A stretch of 64,000 bases of DNA from Nonomuraea terrae (GTDB lineage Bacteria > Actinomycetota > Actinomycetes > Streptosporangiales > Streptosporangiaceae). The stretch covers positions 62,001 to 126,000 of the forward strand of contig NZ_SMKQ01000004.1 in the NCBI RefSeq assembly GCF_004348995.1, given 5' to 3'. Position numbers and translations under genes: made by a program. Below, in pieces: positions 49,705 through 64,000 of this stretch. The notes under the pieces are model-generated. The model did no database searches. It saw only the letters and a list, made by a program, of their open reading frames with translations, and was not told where the DNA came from. Every line of letters starts with the position of its first letter. Positions within the stretch are counted from its first letter, which is position 1.

Positions 49705-50478
49705 CTACCGGGGCGGGAAGTTCGGCGGGCGGCGCTCCAGGAAGCTGGCGACGCCCTCCTGGAAGTCCGGCCGCTTGAACGACGCGGCCATCTCCTGGGT
49801 GGCCGCCTTGGCCGACTCTTCGAGGGTGACGTCCCAGTCGTGCCAGACCTGCCGCTTGATCACCGCCATCGACGCCGGGGAGCTGTGCACGGCCAGCTCC
49901 CCGGCGTACTCCTGCGCCCGCGCGAGCAGTGACTCCCCCGGCACGGCCCGGTTGGCCAGACCCATCTCGTACGCCTCCCGCCCGGTGAACGTCCGGCCCG
50001 ACAGCAGCACGTCCATGGCCCGCTGCGGGCCCACGAGGCGGGGCAGCACCCAGGACAGCCCGTACTCGGCGATCAGGCCCCGGCGCGCGAAGGCCGTCGT
50101 CCACTTGGCCTCCTCGGCCGTGAAGACGAGGTCGCACATGAGGGCGTGCACCAGGCCCAGGCCGGCGCAGGCGCCGTTGACGGCGGCGATGATCGGCTTG
50201 CCGATGGTCGTGGGGAACGTGTTCGGCCGCGGGTCGGGGACCTCCTCGTACGAGCCGGACTGGATGGCGGTGAGGGTCTTGAAGTCGGCGCCGGAGCAGA
50301 ACCCCTTGCCCGCGCCGGTCACCACCACCGCCCGCACCGCGGGGTCGCCCTCGGCCTCGGCCAGGAGGTCGAAGTAGCGCCGCCCCATCGCGCCGGTCCA
50401 GGCGTTGAGGGTCTCGGGACGGTTGAAGGTCAGCGTGAGCACGCCCTGGTCGAGCGTCGAAAGCACGAGTTCCGCCAT
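49705..50478 (-). CDS. Enoyl-CoA hydratase/isomerase (crotonase) family protein
   Basis: 257 residues. LSTLDQGVLTLTFNRPETLN is the family start; the oxyanion-hole segments are AGKGFCSGADFKTL and GKPIIAAVNGACAGLGLVHA. One catalytic acid position of classical hydratases (Glu144 in rat) corresponds to FARRGLIAEYGLSWVLPRLV, with Glu in AEYG near the expected site. It should hydrate or isomerise an acyl-CoA. A partial palindrome GAATCATGTTCTA lies just upstream and recalls KstR-type operators. Convergent with galK, five bases between stops. Confidence 0.9.
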   Translation of the reverse strand: MAELVLSTLDQGVLTLTFNRPETLNAWTGAMGRRYFDLLAEAEGDPAVRAVVVTGAGKGFCSGADFKTLTAIQSGSYEEVPDPRPNTFPTTIGKPIIAAVNGACAGLGLVHALMCDLVFTAEEAKWTTAFARRGLIAEYGLSWVLPRLVGPQRAMDVLLSGRTFTGREAYEMGLANRAVPGESLLARAQEYAGELAVHSSPASMAVIKRQVWHDWDVTLEESAKAATQEMAASFKRPDFQEGVASFLERRPPNFPPR

Positions 50479-50488
50479 ACCGTCAACC

Positions 50489-50501
50489 GAATCATGTTCT
50501 A
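50489..50501. promoter_or_regulatory. KstR-like partial palindrome upstream of enoyl-CoA hydratase
   Basis: On the minus strand the sequence TAGAACATGATTC lies about 11 bases before the ATG at 50478. It partly fits the TnnAACnnGTTnnA operator of KstR-type lipid regulators, with the right arm degenerate. TAGAAC could also serve as a -10 box. Confidence 0.25.
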
Positions 50502-50601
50502 GCCCGGGAAGGCAAGGACACGGTGACCCCTTGGCCCGGGAGCCGCGTGGGACGGCTGCCACGACGTCCGCGACCTGGGCGGGCCGCCCCCGCGCGAGCG
50601 G

Positions 50602-51732
50602 CTAATGGCGGTGGACGAAGTTGGGGCTCAGTACGCGGGTGTCGTAGTAGCGGTGGAAGACGGGCGTGGCGCCGCCCGACAGGGGTGGCACGATCCACGA
50701 CCAGTCCGCCGGGCACACCCGCCCGGCCTTCTCCTCCTTCGACAGGTGGGCGAGGAAGCGGCGCGACTCGGTGTGGTGGTCGGTGATCGTGACCCCCGCC
50801 TGCTCGAACGAGTGCAGCACGGCCACGTTCAGCTCGACCAGGGCGTGGTCGCGCCAGAGCGTGCGCTCGGTGGAGGCGTCCAGGCCGAGCCGCTGCGCCA
50901 CCGTTCTGAGCTGGTCGTAACGGTCCATGTCGGCGAGGTTGCGGGCGCCGATCTCGGTGCCCATGTACCAGCCGTTGAAGGGCGCGCAGGGGTAGCAGAT
51001 GCCACCGATCTCCAGGCACATATCCGAAATAGCCGGAACGGCGTGCCAGCGCAGCCCTAGCTCCTCGAACCACGCGTACTCCGGGTGCGTCAGCGGCACC
51101 TCCAGGACGGCGTCGCCCGGCAGGTGGCACAGCAACGGCTCACCGAGGGCCGGCTGGATGATGACGGGCAGCACGTCGAACCGGCCGCCCCTGCCGCGCC
51201 ACCCCATCGCCCGGGCGGTCTCGGTGAGCTCGACGTTGCGCGGGTCGCCCACGACGCCCTCCTCGGTGCGGTATCCGGCGTAGCGGATGAGCTGGTCGTT
51301 CAGGATGCGCGGGGCGGGCAGGGACGGGGCGTCCGGCGCCATGACGGTGATCGTGGGCCGGATCTTGCCCGTTCCGGTGGCCTCGCGCAGGTGGGCCACG
51401 CATTCCAGGGCCACGCCCTCGGCCGCGCTCACCTGCCGCCGGTCGCGGACCCTCAGCGAACGCCAGTACAGCCGGCCGATGCACCGGCTGCTGTTGCGCC
51501 AGGCCACGCGGGCGCCGAACTCGAGCTCCTCGTAGGTATGGGTGTATGTCCCGTAGCGGGCAATGTCCCTGGCGATGTCGCGCAGGCGGGCGTGCAGTCC
51601 TCCAACGGAGGGGTTCTCGGCGTGGAAGAGCCTGATGAAGCGCTCCGCCTCGCGGAGTTCGGTGGTGCGCTCGGCCACCGCGTGGGCGGTGGGCATCTCG
51701 AAGGGACGCAGGGACCTGATCCAGGTAGGCAC
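50602..51732 (-). CDS. nos: Nitric oxide synthase oxygenase
   Basis: 376 residues: only the oxygenase domain, as in Bacillus, Deinococcus and Streptomyces NOS. The heme-thiolate cysteine is Cys84 in WRNSSRCIGRLYW. The arginine-binding glutamate is Glu260 in GWYMGTEIGARN, following GGICYPCAPFNGW. The pterin region is represented by CPADWSWIVPPLSGGATPVF near the C-terminus. It oxidises L-arginine to citrulline and NO using generic flavoprotein electrons; no reductase domain is fused or adjacent. The start may be the GTG at 51732 or an ATG at 51696. No ribosome binding site is clear. Possible roles are signalling, stress protection or nitration in a biosynthetic pathway. Confidence 0.93.
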   Translation of the reverse strand: MPTWIRSLRPFEMPTAHAVAERTTELREAERFIRLFHAENPSVGGLHARLRDIARDIARYGTYTHTYEELEFGARVAWRNSSRCIGRLYWRSLRVRDRRQVSAAEGVALECVAHLREATGTGKIRPTITVMAPDAPSLPAPRILNDQLIRYAGYRTEEGVVGDPRNVELTETARAMGWRGRGGRFDVLPVIIQPALGEPLLCHLPGDAVLEVPLTHPEYAWFEELGLRWHAVPAISDMCLEIGGICYPCAPFNGWYMGTEIGARNLADMDRYDQLRTVAQRLGLDASTERTLWRDHALVELNVAVLHSFEQAGVTITDHHTESRRFLAHLSKEEKAGRVCPADWSWIVPPLSGGATPVFHRYYDTRVLSPNFVHRH

Positions 51733-52000
51733 GCGGCAACCAGCACTTCTCCGTCATCGGATCGCCCCGCCGATTCCGGGTCGGCGACACGTCCTGGCTG
51801 GCGGCGCCCTCTCCTCGCCACCATCACGACATTCCCGCGGCTCCGGCCCACGAAGAACCGGCGCCCTCATCTTTCCCTGCCACACCCCGCGTTGTCCCGG
51901 AAATCCCGAAATCATGTGATGAGCACGCTACATAGCGTGAAACCCGGACAGACCCGCCGCCCTTGACCTCAACGTTGCTTGACGTTCCACGACCCCGACC

Positions 52001-52081
52001 ATGACGGAGAACAGGCCGGTCATCGCTCGTGGAGCTGAGGCCATGGACGATGTCTTCGGCGACGGAGACGAGACCGGGTAG
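52001..52081 (+). CDS. Possible 26-residue acidic peptide
   Basis: The frame reads MTENRPVIARGAEAMDDVFG, then DGDETG and TAG. TTGACC and TTGACG boxes lie 20-40 bases upstream, but no ribosome binding site or matching -10 box is visible. The acidic C-terminus is unlike random shadow sequence, which here tends to be Arg/Pro-rich. It may be a small regulatory or precursor peptide, or chance; evidence is weak. Confidence 0.2.
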   Translation: MTENRPVIARGAEAMDDVFGDGDETG

Positions 52082-52096
52082 TGGCTCCCGGAACGA

Positions 52097-52135
52097 CTCA
52101 GGCCCCTCGTCCTTGATCTAGGACAGGGGCCTGAG
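52097..52135 (-). terminator. Terminator hairpin downstream of tRNA-Asn
   Basis: CTCAGGCCCCT and AGGGGCCTGAG arms, extended inward by GTCCT/AGGAC with a bulged base, enclose a six-base loop. This long, strong stem lies 14 bases past the tRNA 3' end on the minus strand and fits a tRNA terminator; it could also work in the other direction. Confidence 0.75.
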
Positions 52136-52148
52136 CTGTGATCTTGAG

Positions 52149-52220
52149 CTCCCGCGATAGGACTCGAACCTATAACCTGCCGGTTAACAGCCGGCTGCTC
52201 TGCCGTTGAGCTACGCGGGA
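52149..52220 (-). tRNA. tRNA-Asn (anticodon GTT)
   Basis: On the minus strand the acceptor stem TCCCGCG pairs fully with CGCGGGA and is followed by discriminator G. The D arm is TAGCTCAACGGCAGAGCA; the anticodon arm GCCGG-CTGTTAA-CCGGC has anticodon GTT; the T arm contains GGTTCGAGTCC. Total 72 bases, CCA not encoded. All cloverleaf parts are regular. Confidence 0.97.
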
Positions 52221-52346
52221 TCGATCGTTTGCGCACTTCGCCGGGGCCTTGTGGCCCCTGCGTGGCGCGCAGGAATAGATTAGCGCACTCCTGGAGTGCG
52301 TGTCGCATCGTGAGCGGGGTAGGCCCGGAGACAGCGGAGGTGCAAT

Positions 52347-52658
52347 ATGCGTTATCGAATGACATTCGCTGTTGGTATGGCGGTCGGCTATGTGCTCGGC
52401 AGCCGCGCCGGACGCGAACGGTACGAGCAGATCAGGCGGTCGGCCCAGCGCGTCGCCGACAACCCGCGGGTGCAGGAGATGGCCGGGGTGATGGGCGCGC
52501 AGGCGTCGAAGCTGGCGGGGATGGCCCGCACGAAGATGGGTGACACGCTGCAGCAGCGCATCCCGTTCCTCGGATCTCATGAGCACGACACCGGCACCGG
52601 CTGGCCCGACGAGGACCTCGCGGACAAGAAGGCCCGCGAGAGCGGCATCCCGTACTGA
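52347..52658 (+). CDS. Small YtxH-like envelope protein, 103 residues
   Basis: The N-terminus MRYRMTFAVGMAVGYVLGSR carries one short membrane segment, and the GSRAGRERYEQI motif is typical of YtxH-like proteins. A long amphipathic helix follows (ADNPRVQEMAGVMGAQASKL), then a polar tail. GGAG lies upstream of the ATG (GGAGGTGCAAT). Such proteins are common in actinomycetes and are associated with envelope stress; no precise function is known. Monocistronic, downstream of the tRNA on the opposite strand. Confidence 0.82.
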   Translation: MRYRMTFAVGMAVGYVLGSRAGRERYEQIRRSAQRVADNPRVQEMAGVMGAQASKLAGMARTKMGDTLQQRIPFLGSHEHDTGTGWPDEDLADKKARESGIPY

Positions 52659-52735
52659 CGGCGAACGAGGCATGGGGCCGCACGCCCCATGCCTCGCCGC
52701 GCCTGCTGTCTCGACGCACCACCGCTGAGCGCGAC

Positions 52736-53209
52736 TCAGACGCCCATGCTGCGGCGTACGCCCTCCAGGACCTGTTCGGCCTGGGCGCGCAGGCCGGGGT
52801 CGTCGGGGTCGAGGCCGTCGTCGAAGACGAACGTCCAGCCGAGCACCTCGCCGCCGGGCGGCCGCCGCGCCACCAGCCGCACGCCGCCCCTGCCGGGCAG
52901 GCTCACGTGCTTGTTCACCACGATCGTCGCGTTGACCCGCTCGCGTACGGTCTCCGGCAGCATGCGCGGCTCGGCGATCCGTTCGACGTGCCAGAGGCCG
53001 TCGGTGGTGAGGACGCGCACGCCGTCCTCGTCCCACGACGCCTTGTCGATCTCCTCGTACGGCACCCGCGTGCCGTCGGACAGGTGGAGGGCCAGGTTCG
53101 TGGCCACCACGTGGCCGTTCTCGGCGCCGGCGAACGTCAGCACCCGCTCCCCGCGTTCGGTCTTCAGCGATTTGCGCACCTCAGCGGGCAGGCGGCGGAA
53201 AAGACTCAT
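52736..53209 (-). CDS. PH-like-fold hypothetical protein, 157 residues
   Basis: The protein reads MSLFRRLPAEVRKSLKTERG, then ERVLTFAGAENGHVVATNLA and LHLSDGTRVPYEEIDKASWD, a beta-rich pattern like bacterial PH-type domains that set a protein at the membrane. A C-terminal helix (LRAQAEQVLEGVRRSMGV) closes it. No signal or membrane segment. It overlaps the glycosidase gene by four bases (ATGA) and is therefore translated with it. Actinomycetes encode similar small proteins whose role is unknown. Confidence 0.75.
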   Translation of the reverse strand: MSLFRRLPAEVRKSLKTERGERVLTFAGAENGHVVATNLALHLSDGTRVPYEEIDKASWDEDGVRVLTTDGLWHVERIAEPRMLPETVRERVNATIVVNKHVSLPGRGGVRLVARRPPGGEVLGWTFVFDDGLDPDDPGLRAQAEQVLEGVRRSMGV

Positions 53210-54480
53210 TCCACCACGGTATCGGCGAGCAGATCGAGGGTGAGAGCCGCGCTCCAGGAGAAATCGCGGCAGCCGCGCCCGCTGCCGTCGAAGGGGTCGA
53301 AACACTCCCGGAAACCGGCCTGCCGGACCAGCCGCAGGGTGCCGTTGGTGAGCTGGCGGGCGAGCTGGTCGAGAGAGTGCACGGCGGCGGCCCGGCGCAG
53401 CAGCCAGTTGGTGTTCACCCAGGAGGGGCCGCGCCAGTAGCGGGTGCGGTCGAACTGGGGGGCGCGGATCTCGCAGCTCGGCACCGGGTAGCCGGTCGCC
53501 CCCATGAACCTGGCCGACTCCAGGATCTCCACGGCGGCGCGTACGTGCTCGTGCGGCAGCCCGGGGTCGAGCAGGGGGCCGAACGAGCCGACGGTGCCCA
53601 CCCTGATGAGCCGGTCGGCGCGCAGGTCCCTGGCGTAGAAGCAGCCGTCCCACAGGCGCTCGACCAGCGCCCGCCGGATGCGCTCGGCCCGTTCGGCGTG
53701 CGGGGCGGGGTCGGCGCCGGCCAGCGGGGCCAGCTCGGCCATGGCCTGGCAGGAGGCCAGCCAGATCCCGTTGAACAGCGGGTCCTCGATCGCGAACGGG
53801 TGCTCGTCGCGCAGGTATTCGGGGCTGTATCGGGCGTCCCGGTAGCGCAGGGCGAGCCAGACGTAGCGGTCGTGGTCGCTGGCGGGGTGGCGTTCGGCCA
53901 TCTCGACGCCGCGCTGGCCGTACCCGACGACGGGGAGCGCGGCGAGGGCGTCGTCCCAGGCGGGGCTGTCGTCCATGCCGGACTCCCACGGGTGGACGAT
54001 CGCGGCCAGGCCGGCGCCGCCGAGGTCGCGCGTGGCGGCGAGGTAGTCGTGCTGGGCGGCCAGCGCCGGGTACGCCCGCCGGACGAACGCCGTGTCGCCG
54101 GTGTAGCGGTAGAGCCACCACAGCGCGAGGCCGTGCAGCGGCGGCGCGGTGAGCCCGGAGGTGAGCACCCGCGGCGCGGCGTCGTGCTCCTGCGAGCGCC
54201 ACACGGAGGGCCCGGGGAAGTACGCCTCGCGGGTGTGGAAGACGATGTGCGGCACCATTCCGGTCGCCCACTGCCCGCGCAGCAGGCTGAGCAGCTCGTC
54301 CTGGGCCCGGTCGGGGCGATGGCGGGCCAGACCGATGACGACGAACGCCGAATCCCAGCTCCATTGGTGCGGGTAGAGCCCTGGCGCGGGCACGGTGCCA
54401 GAGCCCGTCCAGTTCGCCTCGAGCACGGCCATCGCCTCGCGCCCGAGCGCGGCATCGTCGACCGCGGGCCGCGACTCCAT
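53206..54480 (-). CDS. GH63 / MGH1-like glycoside hydrolase
   Basis: 424 residues, an alpha/alpha-six barrel. PAPGLYPHQWSWDSAFVVIG opens the catalytic fold, HPWESGMDDSPAWDDAL holds the putative general acid Asp, and RTRYWRGPSWVNTNWLLRRA is a typical sugar-binding loop. The C-terminal GFRECFDPFDGSGRGCRDFS contains the candidate base Glu. Relatives include mannosylglycerate/glucosylglycerate hydrolases and trehalase-like enzymes, so a compatible-solute or small alpha-glucoside substrate is likely. No signal peptide. A CATAGT box ends six bases before the ATG at 54480, favouring that start over the GTG one codon upstream. Coupled to the PH-like gene. Confidence 0.85.
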   Translation of the reverse strand: MESRPAVDDAALGREAMAVLEANWTGSGTVPAPGLYPHQWSWDSAFVVIGLARHRPDRAQDELLSLLRGQWATGMVPHIVFHTREAYFPGPSVWRSQEHDAAPRVLTSGLTAPPLHGLALWWLYRYTGDTAFVRRAYPALAAQHDYLAATRDLGGAGLAAIVHPWESGMDDSPAWDDALAALPVVGYGQRGVEMAERHPASDHDRYVWLALRYRDARYSPEYLRDEHPFAIEDPLFNGIWLASCQAMAELAPLAGADPAPHAERAERIRRALVERLWDGCFYARDLRADRLIRVGTVGSFGPLLDPGLPHEHVRAAVEILESARFMGATGYPVPSCEIRAPQFDRTRYWRGPSWVNTNWLLRRAAAVHSLDQLARQLTNGTLRLVRQAGFRECFDPFDGSGRGCRDFSWSAALTLDLLADTVVE

Positions 54481-54512
54481 CACCCAACTATGACTGGCGT
54501 TGCCTCATGACG

Positions 54513-54671
54513 CTATGTCCGCGTGGCCCACTTCGACACGAACACGACGCCGAGCGCCACGAGACCGATGATGAGCCCCCACTTGAGCAGCGTGAGCATG
54601 AAGCCCACGAGGGGCCCGACGAGTGCGAGCGCGGCCACGACGGCCACGATGATCAGAAGAATGCGTCCCAT
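54513..54671 (-). CDS. 52-residue two-helix membrane protein
   Basis: The minus-strand frame encodes MGRILLIIVAVVAALALVGP, LVGFMLTLLKWGLIIGLVAL and GVVFVSKWATRT: two adjoining membrane helices separated by a lysine-tryptophan turn. A TAGCGT box ends eight bases before the ATG and AGAGG lies next to it. The composition is ideal for a small membrane protein and unlike neighbouring shadow frames, which are Arg/Ser-rich. Similar small proteins are widespread in actinomycetes with unknown function. It is divergent from the PknG operon. Confidence 0.7.
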   Translation of the reverse strand: MGRILLIIVAVVAALALVGPLVGFMLTLLKWGLIIGLVALGVVFVSKWATRT

Positions 54672-54739
54672 ACCTCTGAACGCTATGAGATCTTTTAAGC
54701 GGATTGCAGGCGGGCCGGGGTTGAATCAGGGACAAGTCA

Positions 54740-54769
54740 GGGTCCCCCCGCCGACCGGTCAGGGGGCCC
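54740..54769 (+). promoter_or_regulatory. GC-rich hairpin in the leader of the PknG operon
   Basis: GGGTCCCCC (54740-54748) can pair with GGGGGCCC (54762-54769), one bulged T, across 13 bases, 35 bases before the ATG at 54805. It could modulate read-through or translation of the operon, or simply end transcription arriving from elsewhere. No clear -35/-10 pair is visible nearby. Confidence 0.35.
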
Positions 54770-54804
54770 GCTCGCACGGGAGCGTGATCAGCCTGGGACC
54801 GCCG

Positions 54805-55974
54805 ATGAGCAGGGAGGCCGCGGAGCACGCGCTGCGCGCCCGCGCCGACGAGCGTGACCGCATCTCCGACGACCTGCTCGACCTCGAATCCCATACGACG
54901 TACCGGCTGTTGAAGGGCGCCGCCCTGCGGGGGGCGACCGAACGGCGGTGGGCCGGGGCGCAGCAGTCGCTGGCCGTTCTGTGGTCGCTGCACGACGCCT
55001 ATCGCGCCGTGCTGCGGGAGGCGGAGCGGGTGCGGGGCGAGCGCGGCAGGATGGGCGCCGAGCGGCTCGCGCGCCTGACGGAGCTGCTGTCCGGCCCGTC
55101 GGTGGTGCTGCGGGCGGCCACGCAGCCGGTCGAGCGGCGTTCGTTGCTGCCGCAGGCGGACGAGCGGCTGACCCTCGACGCGGCCGTGAGCCGGATGGAC
55201 GCCGCGTTCCAGGAGGTCACCTCCGCGCTCAACGACATCGACGCGGTGTGGAACGCCGTGCTCCCCCGCCTCGACGCCGCCGAGGCCGACCTGCGCCGGA
55301 TCCGCGAGCTGGAGGGCGAGCTGGGCGAGCAGGCCGGCGTGGACGCGCGGGAGCCGGCCCGGCTGCGCACGGCGGTGGTGCAGGATCCCCTCGGCGCGGC
55401 CGTCGCGCAGGACCTCGACCGGCTGGCGAAGCTGCTGGCCGACACGCGGGCGGAGCTGGAGCTGGCGGTCACGGTCAGGGCCGAGTACGCCCGGCGGCGG
55501 GAGAACCTGACGGCCGCGCTCGACGACGTGCGCTCTGCCGAGAGCGAGGCCCGGCTGGCCCACGGCGCGGTCGTCGTCAAGATCGCCCTGCCGCCGCAGG
55601 CCCTGCCGCGCGGCCGCGCCGACGCGCTGGCCGCCGGCCTGCAAGTCCTGGACGTCTCGGCCGAGCCGTGGGTGCGGCGGGCCAGGCGGCTGTCGGCGCT
55701 GGAGGACGAGATCCGCACGGCCGCCGAGCAGGCGCGGACCACCGCCAAGGCGCTGTACGGGCTGGTCGGCCGGCGCGACGAGTTACGCGGCCGGCTCGGC
55801 GCCTTCCAGATGACGGCGGCGCGCAAGGGCCTGGCCGAGGACCCGGACGCCGTCCGGCTGTACGAGCGGGCGCGCACGCTGCTGTGGACCGCCCCCTGCG
55901 ACCTGACGAGGGCGGCCGCGGCCGTCGAGGACTACCGGCGCGCGTTACACGGAGACACACGGAGGCCAGGATGA
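54805..55974 (+). CDS. Coiled-coil protein, first gene of the PknG operon
   Basis: 389 residues, almost all alpha-helical with heptad patterns: EHALRARADERDRISDDLLD, LHDAYRAVLREAERVRGERG and AAFQEVTSALNDIDAVWNAV. No membrane helix or catalytic motif. The ATG at 54805 has GGGA six bases upstream; a GTG at 54784 is possible. The stop overlaps the pknG start (ATGA), placing it in a seven-gene coupled operon. A scaffold or regulator for the kinase system is the natural inference. Family not recognised beyond its actinomycete context. Confidence 0.8.
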   Translation: MSREAAEHALRARADERDRISDDLLDLESHTTYRLLKGAALRGATERRWAGAQQSLAVLWSLHDAYRAVLREAERVRGERGRMGAERLARLTELLSGPSVVLRAATQPVERRSLLPQADERLTLDAAVSRMDAAFQEVTSALNDIDAVWNAVLPRLDAAEADLRRIRELEGELGEQAGVDAREPARLRTAVVQDPLGAAVAQDLDRLAKLLADTRAELELAVTVRAEYARRRENLTAALDDVRSAESEARLAHGAVVVKIALPPQALPRGRADALAAGLQVLDVSAEPWVRRARRLSALEDEIRTAAEQARTTAKALYGLVGRRDELRGRLGAFQMTAARKGLAEDPDAVRLYERARTLLWTAPCDLTRAAAAVEDYRRALHGDTRRPG

Positions 55975-58094
55975 CCCGCTGCGCGCAGCCCGGCTGCACC
56001 GGGACGATCGAGGAGGGCTACTGCGACCTGTGCGGCCTGGCGGCGAGCGCGCCGCCGTTGCCGGCGCCGGCGTCGGAGCCGGCCCCCGTGGAGACGCGGC
56101 CGGTGAGCAGGCCGCCGAGCTCGCCGTCGGGCAGCGGGCGGTCGCGGGCGGGCGTGCCGGCCACCGTCGCGGACCTGCCGTCGGTGCCGGAGCGCGACCC
56201 GGCCGGTGCGGTGCTGCCCGACCCGGAGGTGCCGGAGTCCAAGCGGTTCTGTGCGAACCCCGACTGCGGGCAGCCGGTGGGGCGCTCCCGCGACGGGCGT
56301 CCCGGGCTGACGGAGGGATTCTGCTCGCACTGCCGTACGCGTTTCTCCTTCAGCCCGAAGCTGAAGAAGGGCGACCTGGTGGGCGGGCAGTACCGCGTGC
56401 TGGGCTGTCTGGCGCACGGCGGGCTGGGCTGGGTCTACCTCGCCGCCGACGAGAACCTCGACGGCCGCTGGGTCGTGCTCAAGGGCCTGCTCAACACGAT
56501 GGACGCCGAGGCGCTGGCGGCGGCGGAGGCCGAGCGGAAGTTCCTGACGGCGGTCGACCACCCCAACATCGTCAAGATCTTCAACTTCGAGCGCTCTGCC
56601 GGGCTCGGCTACATCGTCATGGAGTACGTCGGCGGCCAGTCACTGCACGACCTGCGCCGCCAGGGCCCGCTCCCGCTGCGCGAGACACTCGTGTACGGCC
56701 GGGAGATCCTCCAGGCCTTCGCCTACCTGCACGAACACGGCCTGGTCTACTGCGACCTCAAACCGGCCAACGTGATCAGGGTCGGCAGGCGGCTCAGGCT
56801 CATCGACATGGGCGCCGTGCAGCCGATCGGCTCGCCGGTGGGGTCGTCGTGGGTCACGCCCGGCTACCACGCCCCCGAGCTGGGCAGCCGGCCCTCGTCG
56901 GTCGCGTCCGACCTCTACACCGTGGCCAGGACGCTCGCGGTGCTGGCGATCCCCGGGTTCAGCCCGCTGCAGGGCGGCGTGGCCGCGCCGCTGCCGGTGG
57001 ACTGCGGCCATCCGTCGTTCACCCGGCTGCTGCGCAAGGCGACCGCGCCGGCCCCGGCCGACCGGTTCCAGAGCGCGTGGGAGATGGAGGAGCAGCTCGT
57101 CGGGGTGCTGCGGGAGGTGAGCGCGCTCGAGGACGGCGTGCCGTACCCGGCGTCCTCGGGGCTGTTCGGGCCGGAGCGCACGGCGGTGGGCACGGCGCTG
57201 TCAGAGGACGAGCGCGCCGTGTTCGGGCCGCTCGACCCGGTGGTGGCGGCCGCCGCGCTGCCGGCGCCGCTGGTGGATCCGTCGGACGCGGCGGCGGGTG
57301 CGCTCGCCGGTCTGGCGGGCCGCGACGGCAGGAAGCTGATCGAGCAGCTCGCGGCGCTGCCGCAGACCCCTGAGACGAAGCTGACACGGGCCCGGCTGCT
57401 GGCCGAGGAGGGCGCGCCGGAGGCGTCCGGCGTGCTGGACGCGCTGGAGGCGGAGCTGCCCGGTGACTGGCGGGTCACCTGGTTCCGCGCGGTGCAGGCG
57501 CTGGCCGCGCGCCGGCACGACGACGCGGTGTCGCTGTTCGACGCCTGCGTGTCGGAGCTGCCCGGCGAGCTGGCGCCCAAGCTGGCTCTCGCGCTGGCGC
57601 TGGAGTGCGCGGGCAAGCCGGCCGCCTTCTGGCACGACCTCGTCTGGCGTACCGACCGTGCCTACGTGAGCGCGGCGTTCGGGCTGGCCAGGGCGGGGCG
57701 GATGAACGTGCTGGACGCGGTGCCCGCCACGTCGGTCTACCGGGTGGCGGCACAGGTGGCGCTGGCGGTCTCGGTGGTGCGGCGGCCCGACGTGAGCGGG
57801 CTGCGCCCGGAGGAGCTGGTGGAGGCCGCCGAACGGGTGGCCGCCCAGAGCGACCTGGACGAGCGCCGCCGCGACCAGCTCGTCGCCGAGGTGCTGCGCG
57901 GCGCGCTGACCTGGCTGGAGTCGAACCCGCCGCCGAAGGGCGTGCTGCTGGGCGGGGCGCCGTTCACCGAGGCGGGGCTGCGCCGGCGGCTGGAGGGCAT
58001 CTACCGCAGGCTGGCGGGGGCCGCCGGCTCGCGCCAGGAACGCCACGCGTTCATCGACCAGGCCAACGCCGTACGGCCGAGGACGTGGCTGTGA
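55971..58094 (+). CDS. pknG: PknG-like serine/threonine protein kinase with zinc ribbon and TPR domain
   Basis: 707 residues. A zinc-ribbon start (CAQPGCTGTIEEGYCDLCG), a Pro/Ser linker and a rubredoxin-like module (FCANPDCGQPVGR ... GFCSHCRTRF) precede the kinase, as in mycobacterial PknG. Kinase landmarks: GCLAHGGLGWVYLAAD, Lys171 in VVLKGLL, and the catalytic loop LVYCDLKPANVI with Asp262 (HRD replaced by YCD, as in PknG), then IDMGAVQ and TPGYHAPE. TPR-like helices fill residues about 430-700. In mycobacteria and corynebacteria PknG controls 2-oxoglutarate dehydrogenase through small FHA proteins in response to amino acids sensed by GlnH/GlnX; all these partners follow here. Start overlaps the previous stop. 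Confidence 0.93.
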   Translation: MTRCAQPGCTGTIEEGYCDLCGLAASAPPLPAPASEPAPVETRPVSRPPSSPSGSGRSRAGVPATVADLPSVPERDPAGAVLPDPEVPESKRFCANPDCGQPVGRSRDGRPGLTEGFCSHCRTRFSFSPKLKKGDLVGGQYRVLGCLAHGGLGWVYLAADENLDGRWVVLKGLLNTMDAEALAAAEAERKFLTAVDHPNIVKIFNFERSAGLGYIVMEYVGGQSLHDLRRQGPLPLRETLVYGREILQAFAYLHEHGLVYCDLKPANVIRVGRRLRLIDMGAVQPIGSPVGSSWVTPGYHAPELGSRPSSVASDLYTVARTLAVLAIPGFSPLQGGVAAPLPVDCGHPSFTRLLRKATAPAPADRFQSAWEMEEQLVGVLREVSALEDGVPYPASSGLFGPERTAVGTALSEDERAVFGPLDPVVAAAALPAPLVDPSDAAAGALAGLAGRDGRKLIEQLAALPQTPETKLTRARLLAEEGAPEASGVLDALEAELPGDWRVTWFRAVQALAARRHDDAVSLFDACVSELPGELAPKLALALALECAGKPAAFWHDLVWRTDRAYVSAAFGLARAGRMNVLDAVPATSVYRVAAQVALAVSVVRRPDVSGLRPEELVEAAERVAAQSDLDERRRDQLVAEVLRGALTWLESNPPPKGVLLGGAPFTEAGLRRRLEGIYRRLAGAAGSRQERHAFIDQANAVRPRTWL

Positions 58095-58927
58095 TGGCGG
58101 GCTGTCCGGTCTGCGAGGCGCCGGTGCGGGCGGGCGAGTCGTACTGCGAGGCGTGCGGTCACGCCCTCGGGGCGCCGGCCTGCGTCTCCTGCGGCGCGGC
58201 GGCCGTGGACGCGGAGGGCTACTGCGAGCGGTGCGGGCTGCGCCAGCCGACGGGCCGCGACCACGCCGAGACGGTGCTCGGCGGCGGCGCGGCGGCGGTG
58301 ACCGACCGCGGCCTGCGCCGTCCGCGCAACGAGGACGCGGTGGCGCTGCTGGAGGCGGGCGGGGCCGTGGTGGCGGTGGTGTGCGACGGTGTGGGCAGCT
58401 CGCCGCGGGCCGACGAGGCGTCCGCGGCGGCAGCCGGGACCGCCTCGGCCGCGCTGGCCAGAGGGGCGTCGCAGGCGGAGGCGTTCGAGCTGGCCGCCCG
58501 GGCCGTGGCCAAGCTGGCGACCTCGGTGGACGACGCCCCGGCCTGCACGTACGTGGCCGCCGTGGCGGAGGGCGGGACGGTCACGGTGAGCTGGGCGGGC
58601 GACACGCGCGCGTACTGGCTGCCACGGAGTTCCCCGGCGGCCACGCCGCTGACGGCGGACGACGTGGTGGAGACCGGCGAGCTGACCGCCTGGCTGGGCG
58701 CCGACGCCGGCGAGGTCCGCCCCCACGTGCGGACGCTGGCCCCCCGCGAGCCCGGCCTGCTGCTGGTCTGCAGCGACGGCCTGTGGCGCTACCTGGCCGG
58801 CTACGCCTTCCCGGCCTCCGGGACCCCCAGCGAGATGGCCCGCGAGCTGCTCCGGCACGCGCTGGACGCGGGAGGCCAGGACAACGTGACGATCGCCTTG
58901 ATCCCCTTAGGAGAAGTGCATGGCTGA
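58094..58927 (+). CDS. PP2C-type protein phosphatase with N-terminal double zinc ribbon
   Basis: 277 residues. Residues 1-55 carry paired CxxC motifs (GCPVCEAPVRAGESYCEACG and ACVSCGAAAVDAEGYCERCG), a double zinc ribbon. The PP2C domain follows with metal-binding motifs TDRGLRRPRNEDAVALLEAG, VVCDGVGSSPRADEAS and LLVCSDGLWRYLAGYA, ending GGQDNVTIALIPLG, so all four acidic metal ligands are present. It should dephosphorylate Ser/Thr substrates of the adjacent kinase. The ATG overlaps the pknG stop by one base and the 3' end overlaps the VWA gene by eight. Confidence 0.92.
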   Translation: MAGCPVCEAPVRAGESYCEACGHALGAPACVSCGAAAVDAEGYCERCGLRQPTGRDHAETVLGGGAAAVTDRGLRRPRNEDAVALLEAGGAVVAVVCDGVGSSPRADEASAAAAGTASAALARGASQAEAFELAARAVAKLATSVDDAPACTYVAAVAEGGTVTVSWAGDTRAYWLPRSSPAATPLTADDVVETGELTAWLGADAGEVRPHVRTLAPREPGLLLVCSDGLWRYLAGYAFPASGTPSEMARELLRHALDAGGQDNVTIALIPLGEVHG

Positions 58928-60206
58928 GCAGCCCGCTTTCACGCTGACCATCGACCAGAACAAGTACCTGCCGCTCGACGGCCGCGAGGTGCACGCCGTC
59001 CTCGCCATCGGCTCGACCGGCACGGCGACCACGCAGGCCGCGCCCGCCGAGGCGGCCGAGGTGATCATCATTGACACGTCAGGCTCGATGAGCGGCGCCA
59101 AGATCCGCGAGGCCAGGGAGGCGGCGGTGACGGCCGTACGGACCCTGCGCGACGGCGTGCACTTCGCCGTGGTGGCCGGTACGGGGCAGGCCAGGGTCGT
59201 TTTCCCCGGCGGCGACACCGGCCTGGTCCCGGCCGGCCCGGCCACCAGGGCCGAGGCCGAGCGGGCCGTCAACCAGTTGCTCGCGCACGGCGGCACCGCC
59301 ATCGGCGAGTGGCTGAAGCTGGCCGGGCACCTGCTGACCAGCCGCCCGTCGGCGATCCGGCACGCGCTGCTGATGACCGACGGACAGAACAACGAGCGCG
59401 CCGGGGAGTTCGACGCGGTGCTGCGGGAGTGGAGCGGCACGTTCGTGTGCGACTCGCTGGGCATCGGCGCCGACTGGGTGCCTGCCGAGCTGCGCAAGGT
59501 GGCCGACGCGATGCTCGGCACGTTCGACTACGTCCGCGACCAGGGGGACCTGCCGGAGTACTTCCGGCGGCTCACGCAGGCGTCGATGAGCAAGACCGTG
59601 GCCGAGCTGTCGCTGCGGGTGTGGGTGCCGCAGGCCGCTCGGCTGATGTTCGTCAAGCAGGTCTCCCCCACGCTGCTCGACCTGACCGGCAAGCGCACCG
59701 ACGTCAACCCGCTCACCGGCGACTACCCCACCGGCTCCTGGGGCGCGGAGGAACGCGAGTACCACATCTGCGTCGAGGTGCCGCCGGGCCAGATCGGCCA
59801 GGAGATCAGGGCGGGCTGGGTCAAGCTCGTACGCCCCGACACCCAGGAGGTCGTGGCCAGCGGCAACGTGCTGGCCCAGTGGACCGACGACCTGGCGCAG
59901 TCCACGCAGATCAACCGGAAGGTCGCCCACTACACCGGCCAGGCCGAGCTGCACGAGCTCATCCAGGAGGGGCTCGGCGCGCGCGCCATGGGCGACGTCG
60001 ACACCGCCACCGCCCGCCTGGCCAAGGCTCGCGAGCTCGCCGCCGAGTCCGGCCGGGAGGACACCGCCCGCCTGCTGGAGAAAGTGGTCGAGGTCGACCC
60101 GGTCACGGGGACGGCCCGGCTACGCAACAAGGTCGACAAGACCGACGTGCTGGAGCTCGACACCGGCTCGGAGCGGACCAGCCGGCTGCGCAAGGAAGGA
60201 AGCTGA
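58920..60206 (+). CDS. VWA-domain protein of the PknG operon
   Basis: 428 residues. The von Willebrand A domain (about 45-215) has a complete MIDAS: Asp52-x-Ser54-x-Ser56 in IIDTSGSMSG, the threonine in HGGTAIGEWLKLAG and the aspartate of LLMTDGQNNERAGEF. A beta-sandwich segment (VAELSLRVWVPQAARLMFVK) and a helical tail (DTATARLAKARELAAESGRE) follow. No signal peptide, so it is cytoplasmic. VWA proteins assemble complexes through a metal-dependent contact; placement between a phosphatase and an FHA protein suggests a scaffold that is itself phosphorylated. It has a coupled start. Confidence 0.9.
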   Translation: MAEQPAFTLTIDQNKYLPLDGREVHAVLAIGSTGTATTQAAPAEAAEVIIIDTSGSMSGAKIREAREAAVTAVRTLRDGVHFAVVAGTGQARVVFPGGDTGLVPAGPATRAEAERAVNQLLAHGGTAIGEWLKLAGHLLTSRPSAIRHALLMTDGQNNERAGEFDAVLREWSGTFVCDSLGIGADWVPAELRKVADAMLGTFDYVRDQGDLPEYFRRLTQASMSKTVAELSLRVWVPQAARLMFVKQVSPTLLDLTGKRTDVNPLTGDYPTGSWGAEEREYHICVEVPPGQIGQEIRAGWVKLVRPDTQEVVASGNVLAQWTDDLAQSTQINRKVAHYTGQAELHELIQEGLGARAMGDVDTATARLAKARELAAESGREDTARLLEKVVEVDPVTGTARLRNKVDKTDVLELDTGSERTSRLRKEGS

Positions 60207-60212
60207 CCGGTG

Positions 60213-60845
60213 ATGGCCACCTGTCCGCAGGGGCACGCGTCGGGCGCGGACGACTACTGCGACGTCTGCGGCACGCAGCTGGCCCCCGCTTCCCCGCCGA
60301 GGAGTGAGCCCGCACCACAGTCGGCGCCCGCGAGCTGCCCCGTCTGCCGGACGCCGCGCGCCGGGCACTTCTGCGAGGTGTGCGGCCACGACTACACCGG
60401 CACCGGCGCCCCGGCCCCGATCCCGGCCCACGTGACGGGGGTCCGGTGGGAGGCCGTCGCCGCGGCCGACCGGGCGTACTACGAGAAGGTCATCGCCGAG
60501 GGCGGACCGGACGCCGGATCGGTGGCGTTCCCGCCGTACTGCCCCCAGCGGTCGTTCGCGCTGTCCGGCGAGCAGGTGCGCATCGGGCGGCGCAGCCGGG
60601 CCAGGAACCTCGCGCCCGAGATCGACCTGACCGGGCCGCCGGAGGATCCCGGCGTCTCCCACCTGCACGCCGTGCTGCTGGCCCAGCCGGACGGCTCGTG
60701 GCTGCTGGTGGATCCGGGCTCGTCCAACGGCACTCAGCTGAACGGCAGGCCGCTCACGGTGAACGTGCCGGTCCGGGTGGGCGCCGGCGACCGGATCCAC
60801 GTCGGCGCCTGGACGGTCATCACCCTGAGGGAGGGAGCACCGTGA
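60213..60845 (+). CDS. FHA-domain protein with double zinc ribbon
   Basis: 210 residues. The N-terminal third holds two CxxC pairs (TCPQGHASGADDYCDVCGTQ and SCPVCRTPRAGHFCEVCGHD). The C-terminal FHA domain shows the phosphothreonine-binding arginine in VRIGRRSRARN, the SH of GVSHLHAVL, and LVDPGSSNGTQLNG. It should bind phosphothreonine on the kinase, the VWA protein or itself. Analogous to the FHA regulators (GarA/OdhI) targeted by PknG, but longer and zinc-ribbon-linked. The stop overlaps the next GTG (GTGA). A GTG at 60210 directly before the ATG is an alternative start. Confidence 0.92.
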   Translation: MATCPQGHASGADDYCDVCGTQLAPASPPRSEPAPQSAPASCPVCRTPRAGHFCEVCGHDYTGTGAPAPIPAHVTGVRWEAVAAADRAYYEKVIAEGGPDAGSVAFPPYCPQRSFALSGEQVRIGRRSRARNLAPEIDLTGPPEDPGVSHLHAVLLAQPDGSWLLVDPGSSNGTQLNGRPLTVNVPVRVGAGDRIHVGAWTVITLREGAP

Positions 60846-62203
60846 CGATCGTGCAGACGCGGCCCGCGCCCGCCCCGGCGCGGCGCGGCGTCCCAGGACG
60901 GATCCGCGTCATCTCCGGCGTGACGGCCGCCGCGCTGGCCCTGCTGTTCGCGGCGCTCGCGGCGGGCGCCTGGACCGTCGGCGACGGGCTGCGGGTGATC
61001 GGCCGCGACGCCGGCCCGCAGGTCGTCGCCACCGCCGGGCTCTACCTGGCACTCAGCGACATGGACGCCCAGGTGGCCGACGCCCTCGTCATGGGCGAGG
61101 CGTACGACCGGGAGCGGCAGCAGGCCGTGGACCGGTACGAGCGGCGCCGGTCGGAGGCCAATCAGGCGCTGCTGAAGGCGTTCGAGCTGTCGGGCGACAA
61201 CGAGGCCGAGCGGCGCACCGTGCAGTCGGTGCTGGACGGGCTCGGCCAGTACGAGCGGCTGGCCGCGCAGGCGCTGCTGCTGGACGAGCGGTCACCGCAC
61301 CCGTCGGGCCCGCCGGCGGACGACGTCGTCCTGCTCCACCGGCAGGCGACCGACCTGATGCGGCTGGTGCTGCTGCCGCAGGCGTACAACCTGACGCTGG
61401 AGAACGGCACGATCGTGCGGCGTACGTACGACGACAAGGCGCTGACGGTGCCGCTGCTGCGCGGCGCGGTCGTGCTGGCCGGGCTGCTCGCCCTCGGGTG
61501 CCTGCTGGTGCTGCAGGTCTACCTGGCCAGGCGGTTCCGCCGGGTGTTCGGGCCGGCGCTGCTGGCCGCCACGGTGGCGACCGCGGTCGCGCTGCTCTTC
61601 GGGTCGAACGTGCTGGCGCAGGACGAGCAGGCGCTGCGGGAGGCCAAGACCGCCGGGTTCGACTCGATGCTGACGCTGGCCAGGGCCCGCGCGATCAGCA
61701 ACAGCATGCAGGGCGACCAGAGTCGCTACCTGCTGGACAAGGCCCGCGCCGACACCTACGAGCACATGTATCTGGACAAGTCGCTGTCGGTGCTCTACGT
61801 CGAGGCGGGCAACCTGGAGACCTACCACGCCAAGGTGACCGGGCGTTCCGGCGAAGGGTTCCGTGGCCTGCTCGGCCCCGAGCTGGTCGGCAGGAGCGGC
61901 GAGGCGGCCATGGACGCCTACCGGCGGTTCCAGGCCGCGGACATGGACTTCCGCGCGCGGGCGGCCGACGGCCGGGTGCGCGAGGCGGTCGAGGCGCGGC
62001 TCGGCCCGGTCGGCGAGGCGTTCGACGCCTACGACCGTTCGCTGGTGGCGCTGTCCGAGCAGCATGAGAGCGCGTTCGAGCGGGCGATCGGCCGCGGCGA
62101 GAACACGCTGGACGGCCTGTGGCGGCTGCTGCCCTTCGCGATCGGCGCGATCGGCCTGCTGGTGGTCGCCGGGGTGTGGCCTCGACTGAAGGAGTACCGA
62201 TGA
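60842..62203 (+). CDS. glnX: GlnX-like transmembrane sensor
   Basis: 453 residues with four membrane helices: about 24-45 (ISGVTAAALALLFAALAAGA), about 203-225 (LLRGAVVLAGLLALGCLLVL), about 235-258 and near the C-terminus (LLPFAIGAIGLLVVAGVW). Two extracytoplasmic helical loops (about 50-195 and 260-430) carry regular heptads such as DRYERRRSEANQALLKAFEL, as in chemoreceptor-type four-helix sensor domains. Topology, length and position between PknG and GlnH equal those of GlnX, which relays GlnH ligand binding to PknG. It overlaps both neighbours by four bases. Confidence 0.85.
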   Translation: MTIVQTRPAPAPARRGVPGRIRVISGVTAAALALLFAALAAGAWTVGDGLRVIGRDAGPQVVATAGLYLALSDMDAQVADALVMGEAYDRERQQAVDRYERRRSEANQALLKAFELSGDNEAERRTVQSVLDGLGQYERLAAQALLLDERSPHPSGPPADDVVLLHRQATDLMRLVLLPQAYNLTLENGTIVRRTYDDKALTVPLLRGAVVLAGLLALGCLLVLQVYLARRFRRVFGPALLAATVATAVALLFGSNVLAQDEQALREAKTAGFDSMLTLARARAISNSMQGDQSRYLLDKARADTYEHMYLDKSLSVLYVEAGNLETYHAKVTGRSGEGFRGLLGPELVGRSGEAAMDAYRRFQAADMDFRARAADGRVREAVEARLGPVGEAFDAYDRSLVALSEQHESAFERAIGRGENTLDGLWRLLPFAIGAIGLLVVAGVWPRLKEYR

Positions 62204-63009
62204 AGCGGGTGCTGGCGGCCGTCGCCGCCCTCATGGCCGCGGCGGTGGTCGCCGGATGCGGGACCGGCGCCGCAGAGTCGATCGTGGACCAGGACGAGCT
62301 GGTCATCGCGGTGCGCCCCGACCTGCCCTCGATCGGCTTCCGCAAGGCGGACGGCTCCTTCGAGGGCTTCGACGTGGACGTGGCCCGCTACGTCGCCGGG
62401 AAGCTCGGCAAGCCGTTCACGTTCGTGCCGGTGCTGGCGGCCGACCGGGACAAGGTGCTGGTGGACGGGCGGGCCGACATGGTGGTGGCGACGTACACGA
62501 TCAGCATGGACCGCAAGGCCACGGTGTTGTTCGCGGGGCCGTACCACATCTCCTACCAGGACATCCTGACGCGGCCGGACGACAGGATCGCGAACGTGCG
62601 CGATCTGGAGGGCCGGCGGATCTGCGAGGTCCAGGGCTCGAACGCGGCCCAGCGCGTCCTCGAGGAGCGGAAGGTGCCGGCGCGGGTCGTGCCGTTCGCC
62701 GACTACAAGGCGTGCCTGGCCGCGCTGAAGAGCGAGCAGGTGGACGCGGTCACCACCAACGACGTCATCCTGGCGGGCCTGGCCATGCAGGACGGCTCGG
62801 GGCTGCGGCTGAACAACGCGCAGTTCAACGAGCAGCGCAGCGGGATCGGGCTGCCGAAGGGCGACGTGCCGGGCTGCGAGGCGGTCAACCGGGCGATCAC
62901 GGACATGTACCAGGACGGGACCACGGCGAAGCTGCTGCACCGGTGGTTCGGCACGTCAGGGCTGGACCTCAGCACGATCGCGGTGCCGCAGTTCGAGGGC
63001 TGCTCGTAG
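62200..63009 (+). CDS. glnH: GlnH-like amino-acid-binding lipoprotein
   Basis: 269 residues. A lipoprotein signal ends in VVAGC (Cys20). Family-3 solute-binding motifs follow: LVIAVRPDLPSIGFRKADGS, FEGFDVDVARYVAGKLGKPF and VVATYTISMDRKATVLFAGP, with VDAVTTNDVILAG in the second lobe. There are no linked permease or ATPase genes, which supports a sensory role. Together with GlnX and PknG it would report extracellular glutamate/aspartate/glutamine. It is the last gene of the operon and ends four bases before the convergent IclR gene. Confidence 0.92.
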   Translation: MKRVLAAVAALMAAAVVAGCGTGAAESIVDQDELVIAVRPDLPSIGFRKADGSFEGFDVDVARYVAGKLGKPFTFVPVLAADRDKVLVDGRADMVVATYTISMDRKATVLFAGPYHISYQDILTRPDDRIANVRDLEGRRICEVQGSNAAQRVLEERKVPARVVPFADYKACLAALKSEQVDAVTTNDVILAGLAMQDGSGLRLNNAQFNEQRSGIGLPKGDVPGCEAVNRAITDMYQDGTTAKLLHRWFGTSGLDLSTIAVPQFEGCS

Positions 63010-63013
63010 CGCG

Positions 63014-63790
63014 TCAGGCGGGCAGGCGGTGGCCGAGGCGCCGGGAGGCGTCCTCCGCCGCCGCCACGACCCGCGGCGCGAGGTCGCCCACGTCGGCGGG
63101 GGTCAGCCGCTGCGTCGGAGCGATCATGCCGAGGACCGCGACGAGGTCGCCGGTGTGGCCGAAGACGGGCGCGCTGATGGAGGCCGCGCCGACGTCGCGC
63201 TCCTCGAACGTCGCCGAGTAGCCGCGCCTGCGCACCTCGGCGAGCTGCTCGTCCAGCACGTCGATGTCGACGACGGTGCGCGAGGTGTGGCGGGTCAGGC
63301 CGTGGCCGACCGCCGCACGGCGGGCCGCGGGGTCGAAGGCCATGAAGACCTTGCCGGCCGAGCCCGCGTGCAGCGGCATCACCATGCCGACCGTGAAGAT
63401 GCGCATCACCGAGTAGCGGGTCTCGGCCAGGCTCACCACCGTGCGGTAGGGCCCGTCGCGCACGTACAGGGCGGTCGACTCGCCGGTCTGGTCGCGCAGC
63501 CGGCGCAGCACCGGACGGGTGAGCTGCACGATGTCGAGGCCGAGGGTGCCGGGGGCGGCCCAGCGCACCAGGTCGAGGCCGATGCGGTAGACGTCGTCGT
63601 TGCGGTCGAGGAAGCCCTCGCGCAGCAGGCTGTTCACCAGCCGCTGGCAGGTGCTGGCGGGCAGCCCGGTGATCTTGGTGATCTGCTGGAGGGTCAGCTC
63701 GGGCCGTTCGACGGTGAAGCACTCGAGGATCTGGCGGATCTTCCGCAGGACCAGCACCTGGGAGGTGCCCGATTCTTCGCTCTTGCCCAT
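63014..63790 (-). CDS. IclR-family transcriptional regulator
   Basis: 258 residues. The winged helix-turn-helix reads LVLRKIRQILECFTVERPEL, then TLQQITKITGLPASTCQRLV. The IclR effector domain follows: TGESTALYVRDGPYRTVVSL, MPLHAGSAGKVFMAF and the C-terminal FGHTGDLVAVLGMIAPTQRL. The family regulates catabolism of aromatics, short acids and glyoxylate-type compounds. It lies 38 bp downstream of the HMG-CoA-lyase-like gene on the same strand, so they may form one operon for branched-chain or acyl-CoA degradation. Confidence 0.93.
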   Translation of the reverse strand: MGKSEESGTSQVLVLRKIRQILECFTVERPELTLQQITKITGLPASTCQRLVNSLLREGFLDRNDDVYRIGLDLVRWAAPGTLGLDIVQLTRPVLRRLRDQTGESTALYVRDGPYRTVVSLAETRYSVMRIFTVGMVMPLHAGSAGKVFMAFDPAARRAAVGHGLTRHTSRTVVDIDVLDEQLAEVRRRGYSATFEERDVGAASISAPVFGHTGDLVAVLGMIAPTQRLTPADVGDLAPRVVAAAEDASRRLGHRLPA

Positions 63791-63828
63791 CAGTGCCTTC
63801 CCGACGCGACTTCGGAAGATACCGTACG

Positions 63829-64000
63829 TCAGGGCGCGGCGGCCGTCCCGCGCACGGCCACCGGCTCGGCCGGCACGGCCGACAGCGCGGAGTCGAGCCG
63901 GTGGCCCAGCAGCGCCCCCACCTCGTCGCGGACGGCGACGAGCCTACCGGGATCGATCCCGGTGGCGAAGCCCGCGTGATGGCAGAGGTTGACCAGGTCG
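63829..64000 (-). CDS. Hydroxymethylglutaryl-CoA lyase-like protein, C-terminal end (cut by window edge)
   Basis: The minus strand is open from the window edge to a TGA at 63829, giving 56 residues: DLVNLCHHAGFATGIDPGRL, then VAVRDEVGALLGHRLDSALS. This matches the C-terminal helices of HMG-CoA lyases (EDLV-L-H--GI-TG-DL---). The enzyme would cleave HMG-CoA to acetoacetate and acetyl-CoA in leucine degradation. The catalytic domain is outside the window, so a homologous DRE-TIM lyase cannot be excluded. It is followed by the IclR gene. Confidence 0.65.
   Translation of the reverse strand, partial: DLVNLCHHAGFATGIDPGRLVAVRDEVGALLGHRLDSALSAVPAEPVAVRGTAAAP

Follow-up and report, generated by a model that had tools for sequence, protein, structure and literature searches.

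We examined a 64,000-nucleotide stretch of the Nonomuraea terrae genome (9.69 Mb; contig NZ_SMKQ01000004.1, positions 62,001 to 126,000; hereafter the window), which carries an operon of seven genes around the protein kinase PknG. The explanation that in our judgement stands an even chance of being right is a two-part amino-acid signalling operon: GlnH, GlnX and PknG would drive the regulator GarA and, in addition, a switch made of the operon's VWA and FHA proteins, which would resemble ArnA-ArnB of Sulfolobus and be reset by the operon's PP2C phosphatase. The GarA branch builds on published relatives, and the VWA-FHA branch is proposed by analogy. The operon occupies positions 54805-63009 of the window, with its genes in the following order:

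54805..55974, + strand: CC (coiled-coil), the first operon gene, 389 amino acids (aa), predicted all-helical; an open frame, for which an alternative upstream GTG start at 54784 is possible
55971..58094, + strand: PknG; zinc ribbon cysteines 4, 9, 18 and 21, rubredoxin domain 67-131, kinase domain matched over 144-325, TPR domain 393-705
58091..58927, + strand: PP2C phosphatase with an N-terminal double zinc ribbon; PP2C_2 and DZR above cut-off
58920..60206, + strand: VWA with a predicted ArnB/Sec23-24-type core; VWA_3 and VWA_3_C; VWA domain, beta-sandwich and C-terminal helical bundle, no ribbon
60210..60845, + strand: FHA with two N-terminal zinc ribbons; FHA domain above the Pfam cut-off
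60842..62203, + strand: GlnX, membrane signal transducer; NF058618 at 272.6 bits (cut-off 250), four hydrophobic segments, C-tail PRLKEYR
62200..63009, + strand: GlnH, solute-binding lipoprotein; SBP_bac_3 at E 2.3e-27, lipobox Cys20

An earlier note on this DNA had described seven genes in one direction, nearly all of them overlapping, and both points were borne out: all seven lie on the + strand and five of the six junctions overlap (by 4, 4, 8, 4 and 4 bp, given our choice of start codons). The overlap of PknG and PP2C shrinks to 1 bp if PP2C starts at ATG 58094; VWA and FHA are separated by a gap of 3 bp. The domain calls of the note proved correct as well, with matches to PknG, PP2C, VWA with VWA_3_C, FHA, GlnX and SBP_bac_3. 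PknG matches PF16919, PF00069 and PF16918, all above the Pfam cut-off, giving the rubredoxin, kinase and TPR architecture, and its best match in the PDB is 2pzi, the PknG of M. tuberculosis (E 6.5e-136).

The active sites are intact. The kinase residues K171, D262, N267 and D279 of PknG are kept in all 81 PknG loci compared. The four metal-binding aspartates of PP2C (D98, D170, D228 and D263) are each found in 59 of 61 aligned rows, the remainder being gaps and one alanine, and the metal ion-dependent adhesion site (MIDAS) of VWA, D/S/S/T/D, in 61 of 64 rows, the other three being gaps. Residues R126, S149 and N172 of FHA are present in 57 of 57 rows, two of the original 59 (L081 and L083) having been excluded beforehand for a doubtful computed start. 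The lipobox cysteine C20 of GlnH is kept in more than 90% of 64 rows. GlnX reaches only 37 bits against the stricter equivalog model NF041460, below its cut-off of 780. The CC protein has no Pfam family above cut-off, although an alignment of 37 sequences contains 12 invariant columns. Its AlphaFold2 model consists of long helices (predicted local distance difference test, pLDDT, 95) and found no PDB fold match at E<=0.001 in a fold search; the 'own scaffold' that the earlier note ascribed to the system is thus a conjecture about a protein resembling no solved fold at that threshold.

The extended system is widespread. A PknG_TPR search covered 396 genomes of the phylum (47 above the cut-off) and 150 of the order (97 with a match), and from these lists 80 loci were hand-picked across genera, including second copies. 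With the window they make 81 loci, not a random sample, in which gene presence was scored with a 60-bit floor. All seven genes occur in 47 loci, and PknG, PP2C, VWA and FHA occur together in 55. The gene order of the window is found in 38 loci, among which we count L061 although its VWA gene is a remnant of 131 aa; counting any match gives 39, the additional locus L069 falling below the floor with a PP2C match of 47 bits. A second order, GlnX-GlnH-CC-PknG-PP2C-VWA-FHA, characterizes eight loci, all of group f3, which is probably Streptomyces. Locus L030, from another class, has all seven genes with GlnH and GlnX convergent, and genome G510 carries two complete seven-gene copies (L075, L076).

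The FHA protein has at least 579 relatives in named genomes. Among the best 80, which were kept, 48 loci have the window's order, 57 have all seven genes in some order, and seven (Kibdelosporangium, Saccharothrix, Antrihabitans and an Acidimicrobiaceae metagenome-assembled genome) have the second order; PknG, PP2C, VWA and FHA are present in 68, and five lack PknG on the stretch examined. GlnX or GlnH adjoins PknG in most loci of both samples. Across 296 genomes of the class, PknG was found in 98 (125 places) and the operon FHA in 70 (88 places), with FHA lying within 10 kb of PknG in 57 of its 88 places. This proximity, together with a gene order that recurs across families, argues that the gene set is more than chance. 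Several of the other 31 FHA places were read, in family f97, and turned out to be PP2C-VWA-FHA or PP2C-FHA sets without a full PknG, or contig ends. In this family, L140 and L148 are PP2C-VWA-FHA sets without PknG, and L141 and L152 have a rubredoxin kinase; that of L152, the only one of these sets checked, gave no PknG_TPR match.

The first of the two proposed branches is the known one. According to the excerpts on which we draw for all published work cited here, in M. smegmatis and C. glutamicum aspartate or glutamate is sensed by GlnH, which acts on PknG via GlnX (PMC6069109, PMC9769921), and the short cytoplasmic ends of GlnX have been proposed to bind the TPR domain (PMC6069109). The part of GlnX past the last membrane helix is strongly conserved: it ends in R[LMI]x(0-2)EYR in 114 of 160 frames and in PRLAEFR in 20 more, in members of the GlnX-GlnH-PknG trio (L028, L032, L034, L035) as well as in extended systems. 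This conserved tail supports the proposed coupling of GlnX to the TPR domain. The host genome also encodes a GarA/OdhI ortholog elsewhere (G000:C436, locus L096), which scores 178.5 bits over positions 1-128 of 130, below the curated 200. It bears the sequence SGDTTSTIS with the DTTST phospho-motif, and its N-terminal zinc ribbon matches Zn_Ribbon_1 above cut-off. Since the genome has its own GarA with the phospho-motif, the PknG-GarA branch is probably intact, as judged from sequence. We rejected the operon FHA as a candidate GarA: it scores 14.3 bits against the OdhI model, whereas the C436 protein matches nearly all of it. The complete reversible phospho-relay seen by the earlier note fits the operon in that catalytic and binding residues are kept and the genes stay together, but the known output, GarA, is encoded elsewhere.

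The second branch was suggested by the structure of VWA. Its model (pLDDT 92) matches 4fx5, a protein of Catenulispora acidiphila, as the top Foldseek hit over the whole length (TMq 0.92, 51% identity). The next fold matches are both ArnB copies in the Sulfolobus ArnAB complex 8s05 (TMq 0.66 for 8s05_A), then the ArnB paralog 5a8j (TMq 0.56) and, lower down, Sec23/24. The core fold of the VWA model is thus that of ArnB and Sec23-24. Profile comparisons recovered a whole-length match of VWA to 4fx5 (E 2.3e-175) and matches to both proteins of 8s05, of VWA at 2.3e-11 and of FHA at 1e-5. In Sulfolobus, the zinc finger of ArnA docks ArnB, and the ArnA FHA domain binds ArnB phosphothreonines in a nutrient-dependent manner (PMC12852372). 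Unphosphorylated, the two proteins are joined only loosely, by way of the zinc finger; the pair becomes tight through FHA and phosphothreonine after the action of the kinase ArnC, and PP2A reverses this (PMC12852372, PMC7472852, PMC6509490). Conserved threonines are present in the helical bundle and tail of VWA (T339, T364, T398, T415 and T420, in 83-94% of rows), and the VWA loop equivalent to the ArnA docking loop reaches only the 83rd percentile of conservation.

Zinc ribbons recur in the operon. Double ribbons had been reported for three consecutive proteins, the kinase, the phosphatase and FHA. They are present in PP2C and FHA, whereas PknG has one extra ribbon besides the ordinary PknG rubredoxin domain, and the three are not consecutive, the ribbon-free VWA lying between PP2C and FHA. 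The earlier observation is right in substance and wrong in this detail. Only the double ribbon of PP2C reaches a Pfam cut-off (DZR 28.9 vs 27.3); the FHA ribbons score 16 bits against DZR, and the FHA and PknG calls are based on conserved cysteines. In all five trio loci of groups f4 and f11 PknG lacks the N-terminal ribbon, which the reduced locus L088 retains; in L054, L070, L076 and L080, PknG bears three tandem N-terminal ribbons ahead of the rubredoxin domain. Assembly through a shared ribbon element, also put forward by the earlier note, has a structural precedent in ArnA-ArnB (PMC12852372), and a common docking element for the ribbons may exist. The contingency of ribbon and VWA (136, 12, 9, 11) is confounded by descent and was not used as a test; its exceptions turned out on reading to be regex misses and degenerate ribbons.

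The relation between the trio and the extended operon was explored with PknG trees, which are quick IQ-TREE runs with Shimodaira-Hasegawa-like approximate likelihood ratio test (SH-aLRT) support only and locus labels assigned by us; the label 'extended' takes in loci short of one member (L095 without PP2C, L207 without VWA). The sample holds no Corynebacterium. Group f4 is Mycobacterium-like, its PknG scoring 1401 bits (L032) and 690 bits (L034) against M. tuberculosis PknG; three of its four loci are GlnX-GlnH-PknG and one (L033) is PknG alone. A tree of 58 proteins unites the four f4 trio proteins in a single group (support 100) that joins the extended-operon copies of Antrihabitans and the f4 genome G742 (95), and this larger group joins the extended operons of Pseudonocardia (99). 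A tree of 37 of the 58 rows, rooted with four distant PknG-like paralogs (L024-L027), again places the f4 trio inside, with support of 90 for the grouping with Antrihabitans and G742 and 99 for that with Pseudonocardia, and has extended operons on either side of the deepest forks. Further reductions appear in G375 (L028, weakly placed) and G417 (L088), bringing the changes for the trio label to three. Rejections by the approximately unbiased (AU) test in the topology comparisons are probably driven largely by L088.

Because the trio is nested within extended operons, it is simpler to assume that the Mycobacterium-like line lost CC, PP2C, VWA and FHA. The textbook trio is thus probably a reduced form of the extended operon, and not, as the earlier note had it, the basis that the operon enlarges. 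We grade the reduction as no more than probable because the outgroup is distant and support is by SH-aLRT only. Rows of Acidimicrobiaceae and f44 are placed among those of f8 and f97, which makes transfers between classes likely too. The seven-gene PknG operon L134 (G742:C144) stands in a Mycobacterium-like genome (f4/g4), which also has a PknG match on C24 that scores like trio PknGs and a third on C75; L134 reflects either transfer or assembly mixing.

From these observations (the anatomy, the intact active sites, the conservation, the VWA fold and the nesting of the trio) we infer the interactions, the phosphorylations and the second output of the following scheme. GlnH, as periplasmic lipoprotein, and GlnX, as membrane transducer, would form the sensor part, whose signal would reach the PknG TPR domain, probably by way of the conserved GlnX tail. 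CC, PknG, PP2C, VWA and FHA would make up the phosphorylation part, which the helical CC probably holds together. PknG would phosphorylate the distantly encoded GarA, releasing 2-oxoglutarate dehydrogenase as in mycobacteria and corynebacteria, and might also phosphorylate threonines of the C-terminal helical bundle of VWA. FHA, at first loosely attached to VWA via its zinc ribbons, would then lock on through phosphothreonine binding, and PP2C would reset the pair. The logic would be that by which ArnC and PP2A act on ArnA-ArnB in Sulfolobus. The second branch would have been lost in Mycobacterium-like lineages.

Several observations weigh against this two-part scheme. GarA and ArnA score equally well against the FHA profile, so the FHA domain alone is no argument for ArnA. 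The SIETT motif of ArnB is absent, the window's VWA protein having no IETT. Seven genomes with PP2C and FHA beside PknG (G460, G461 and G464 of g248, three Nocardiopsis and one Glycomyces fuscus record, whose PknG falls among g248 in the tree) yielded no complete VWA gene. The only traces of VWA in these genomes are the remnant in L061 (131 aa) and, in G464, a match of 43 bits. Where VWA is missing and FHA stays, FHA must have another partner, and VWA as an obligate hub is weakened as an idea. Conversely, L029, L055, L057, L072-L074 and L077 are PknG-VWA clusters without PP2C and FHA, at least three of which sit in genomes that carry a further, complete copy (G444, G491, G510). As VWA and PP2C/FHA are each found without the other, neither pair is obligate. 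The GarA ribbon is distributed far more widely than the operon. Distance matrices from 45 of the 47 complete loci gave correlations of 0.885-0.952 within the five-gene block, 0.962 for GlnX-GlnH and 0.757-0.843 between them; within f1 (14 loci) this split disappears, with a GarA baseline of 0.841-0.902, and we do not rely on the test. The VWA remnant in L061 (10274-10666, 72 bits, near PP2C and FHA) is a decaying gene in a g248 genome.

The less probable but serious competitor of the two-part scheme has a single output. In it, PP2C, FHA, VWA and CC would be accessories of PknG-GarA, PP2C serving as a dedicated GarA phosphatase and FHA vying with GarA for the PknG N-terminus once this is autophosphorylated. 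Phosphothreonines in this N-terminus do recruit GarA (PMC8546545), the phosphothreonine site of the operon FHA is intact, and FHA and PP2C survive the loss of VWA. Among 31 GarA proteins, an N-terminal ribbon is found in 17 of 17 from genomes with PknG-PP2C-VWA-FHA and in none of five from trio-type genomes (in four of them the trio locus itself was read, and G255 was assigned through its family). The same ribbon also occurs in five of nine genomes without PknG and in operon-free families, and a single output leaves unexplained both the ArnB-type fold of VWA and the PknG-VWA pairs that lack FHA and PP2C. As a mark of the operon the GarA ribbon was clean by family among the 31 proteins and failed in a wider sample. 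In G589 and G550, which have neither operon FHA nor PknG, the GarA match starts inside the ribbon, judging by the match range among the matches listed; in G742 and G566, where the operon FHA is present, GarA scores (the only evidence used here) resemble ribbon-free ones. Many families of the class have a ribbon on GarA, but those f4 (Mycobacterium-like) genomes that were read do not, and a literature search gave no paper linking OdhI with a zinc ribbon.

We consider it unlikely that the kinase, PP2C, VWA and FHA form a general stress or conflict module of the GAP1-N2 GTPase type, borrowed by PknG and responding to a signal other than amino acids. Actinobacterial zinc-ribbon kinases have been tied to PP2C and a standalone vWA (PMC7159879), and the f97 sets without a full PknG (L140 and L148; L141 and L152 with a rubredoxin kinase) would suit such a module. 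Against this, no GTPase, GAP1 or effector was recognised among the seven proteins, to which the search was limited, GlnX or GlnH stands beside PknG in most loci of both samples, and PADLOC yielded nothing beyond kinase models of a generic kind and a single weak match for PP2C. That the four extra genes are merely co-transcribed without working with PknG is very improbable: single parts can be lost, but the seven are kept together in differing orders and in another class, exist as two complete copies in G510, and overlap at their junctions.

A bolder form of the two-part scheme strikes us as rather doubtful. It would make the operon a bacterial ArnAB-type switch under an amino-acid receptor, in which the ribbons on PknG, PP2C, FHA and GarA are interchangeable plugs for shared docking surfaces, the first being VWA. 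The second output of PknG would then be an ancestral trait of actinobacteria that Mycobacterium-like lineages have lost.

On the 3' side of the operon, an IclR regulator gene on the opposite strand ends 4 bp past GlnH. The nearest recognised gene on the 5' side encodes an MGH1-like glycoside hydrolase (53206-54483, - strand; PF22422, E 3.5e-105), and a short frame at 54523-54671 on the - strand, divergent from the operon, has no Pfam match and is hydrophobic by inspection. About 3 kb upstream of the operon lies a bacterial nitric oxide synthase oxygenase gene (50602-51732, - strand; PF02898, E 3.8e-150). A tRNA gene (52149-52220, - strand) was the only match in an Rfam scan of positions 50000-64000. 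Scanning for promoters and terminators gave no promoter-like site and one terminator-like site, on the opposite strand, at chance level.

Compared with the PknG-GlnX-GlnH system and GarA/OdhI of Mycobacterium and Corynebacterium (PMC6069109, PMC9769921, PMC8546545), the operon encodes a kinase of like architecture and members of the same GlnX and GlnH families, linked in one operon; the GlnX C-tail is alike too, and a GarA ortholog bearing the phospho-motif is encoded at another place in the genome. The operon differs in adding four conserved genes (CC, PP2C, VWA and FHA), in the extra N-terminal ribbon of PknG, in the GarA ribbon and in having GlnX and GlnH after the phosphorylation genes. 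With Sulfolobus ArnA-ArnB (PMC6509490, PMC7472852, PMC12852372) it would share a vWA protein paired with a zinc-ribbon FHA protein and the three-domain VWA fold, here known from genes and models, as well as a kinase and phosphatase set and a nutrient signal, with phosphorylation here being presumed. The differences are two ribbons in place of the one RanBP2-type finger of ArnA, PP2C instead of PP2A, a sensor and kinase in the same operon, and the absence of an archaellum and of the SIETT motif. The solved structure 4fx5 belongs to the same family as the operon VWA, and its likeness to ArnB has already been noted, the excerpts at hand making no mention of its operon (PMC6509490, PMC12852372). 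GAP1-N2 GTPase systems (PMC7159879) likewise have a zinc-ribbon kinase, PP2C and a standalone vWA as actinobacterial neighbours; here no GTPase or GAP1 was recognised among the seven proteins, the kinase is PknG with its TPR domain, and GlnX and GlnH are present.

Among open-licence papers our searches listed none that we recognised as an account of the extended operon, and Fig. 2B of PMC6069109, a STRING view, may show more genes. What the excerpts of the PknG papers cover is the trio and how it is conserved; CC, PP2C, VWA and FHA do not feature in them. The PknG literature that we found deals almost only with mycobacteria and corynebacteria. A literature search for the TerY-P triad, a possible relative, gave no paper on it. 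The trio as a probable reduced form and the ArnAB-like VWA-FHA pair appear to be new. If the trio is a remnant, then VWA, FHA, PP2C and CC would be a missing piece of the amino-acid response of actinobacteria, including many soil genera. The VWA-FHA pair, if the proposal is true, would be the bacterial equivalent of the ArnA-ArnB switch of archaea and provide a functional context for the solved structure 4fx5. If PknG does have a second output, the best-studied PknG systems would show only half of the pathway.

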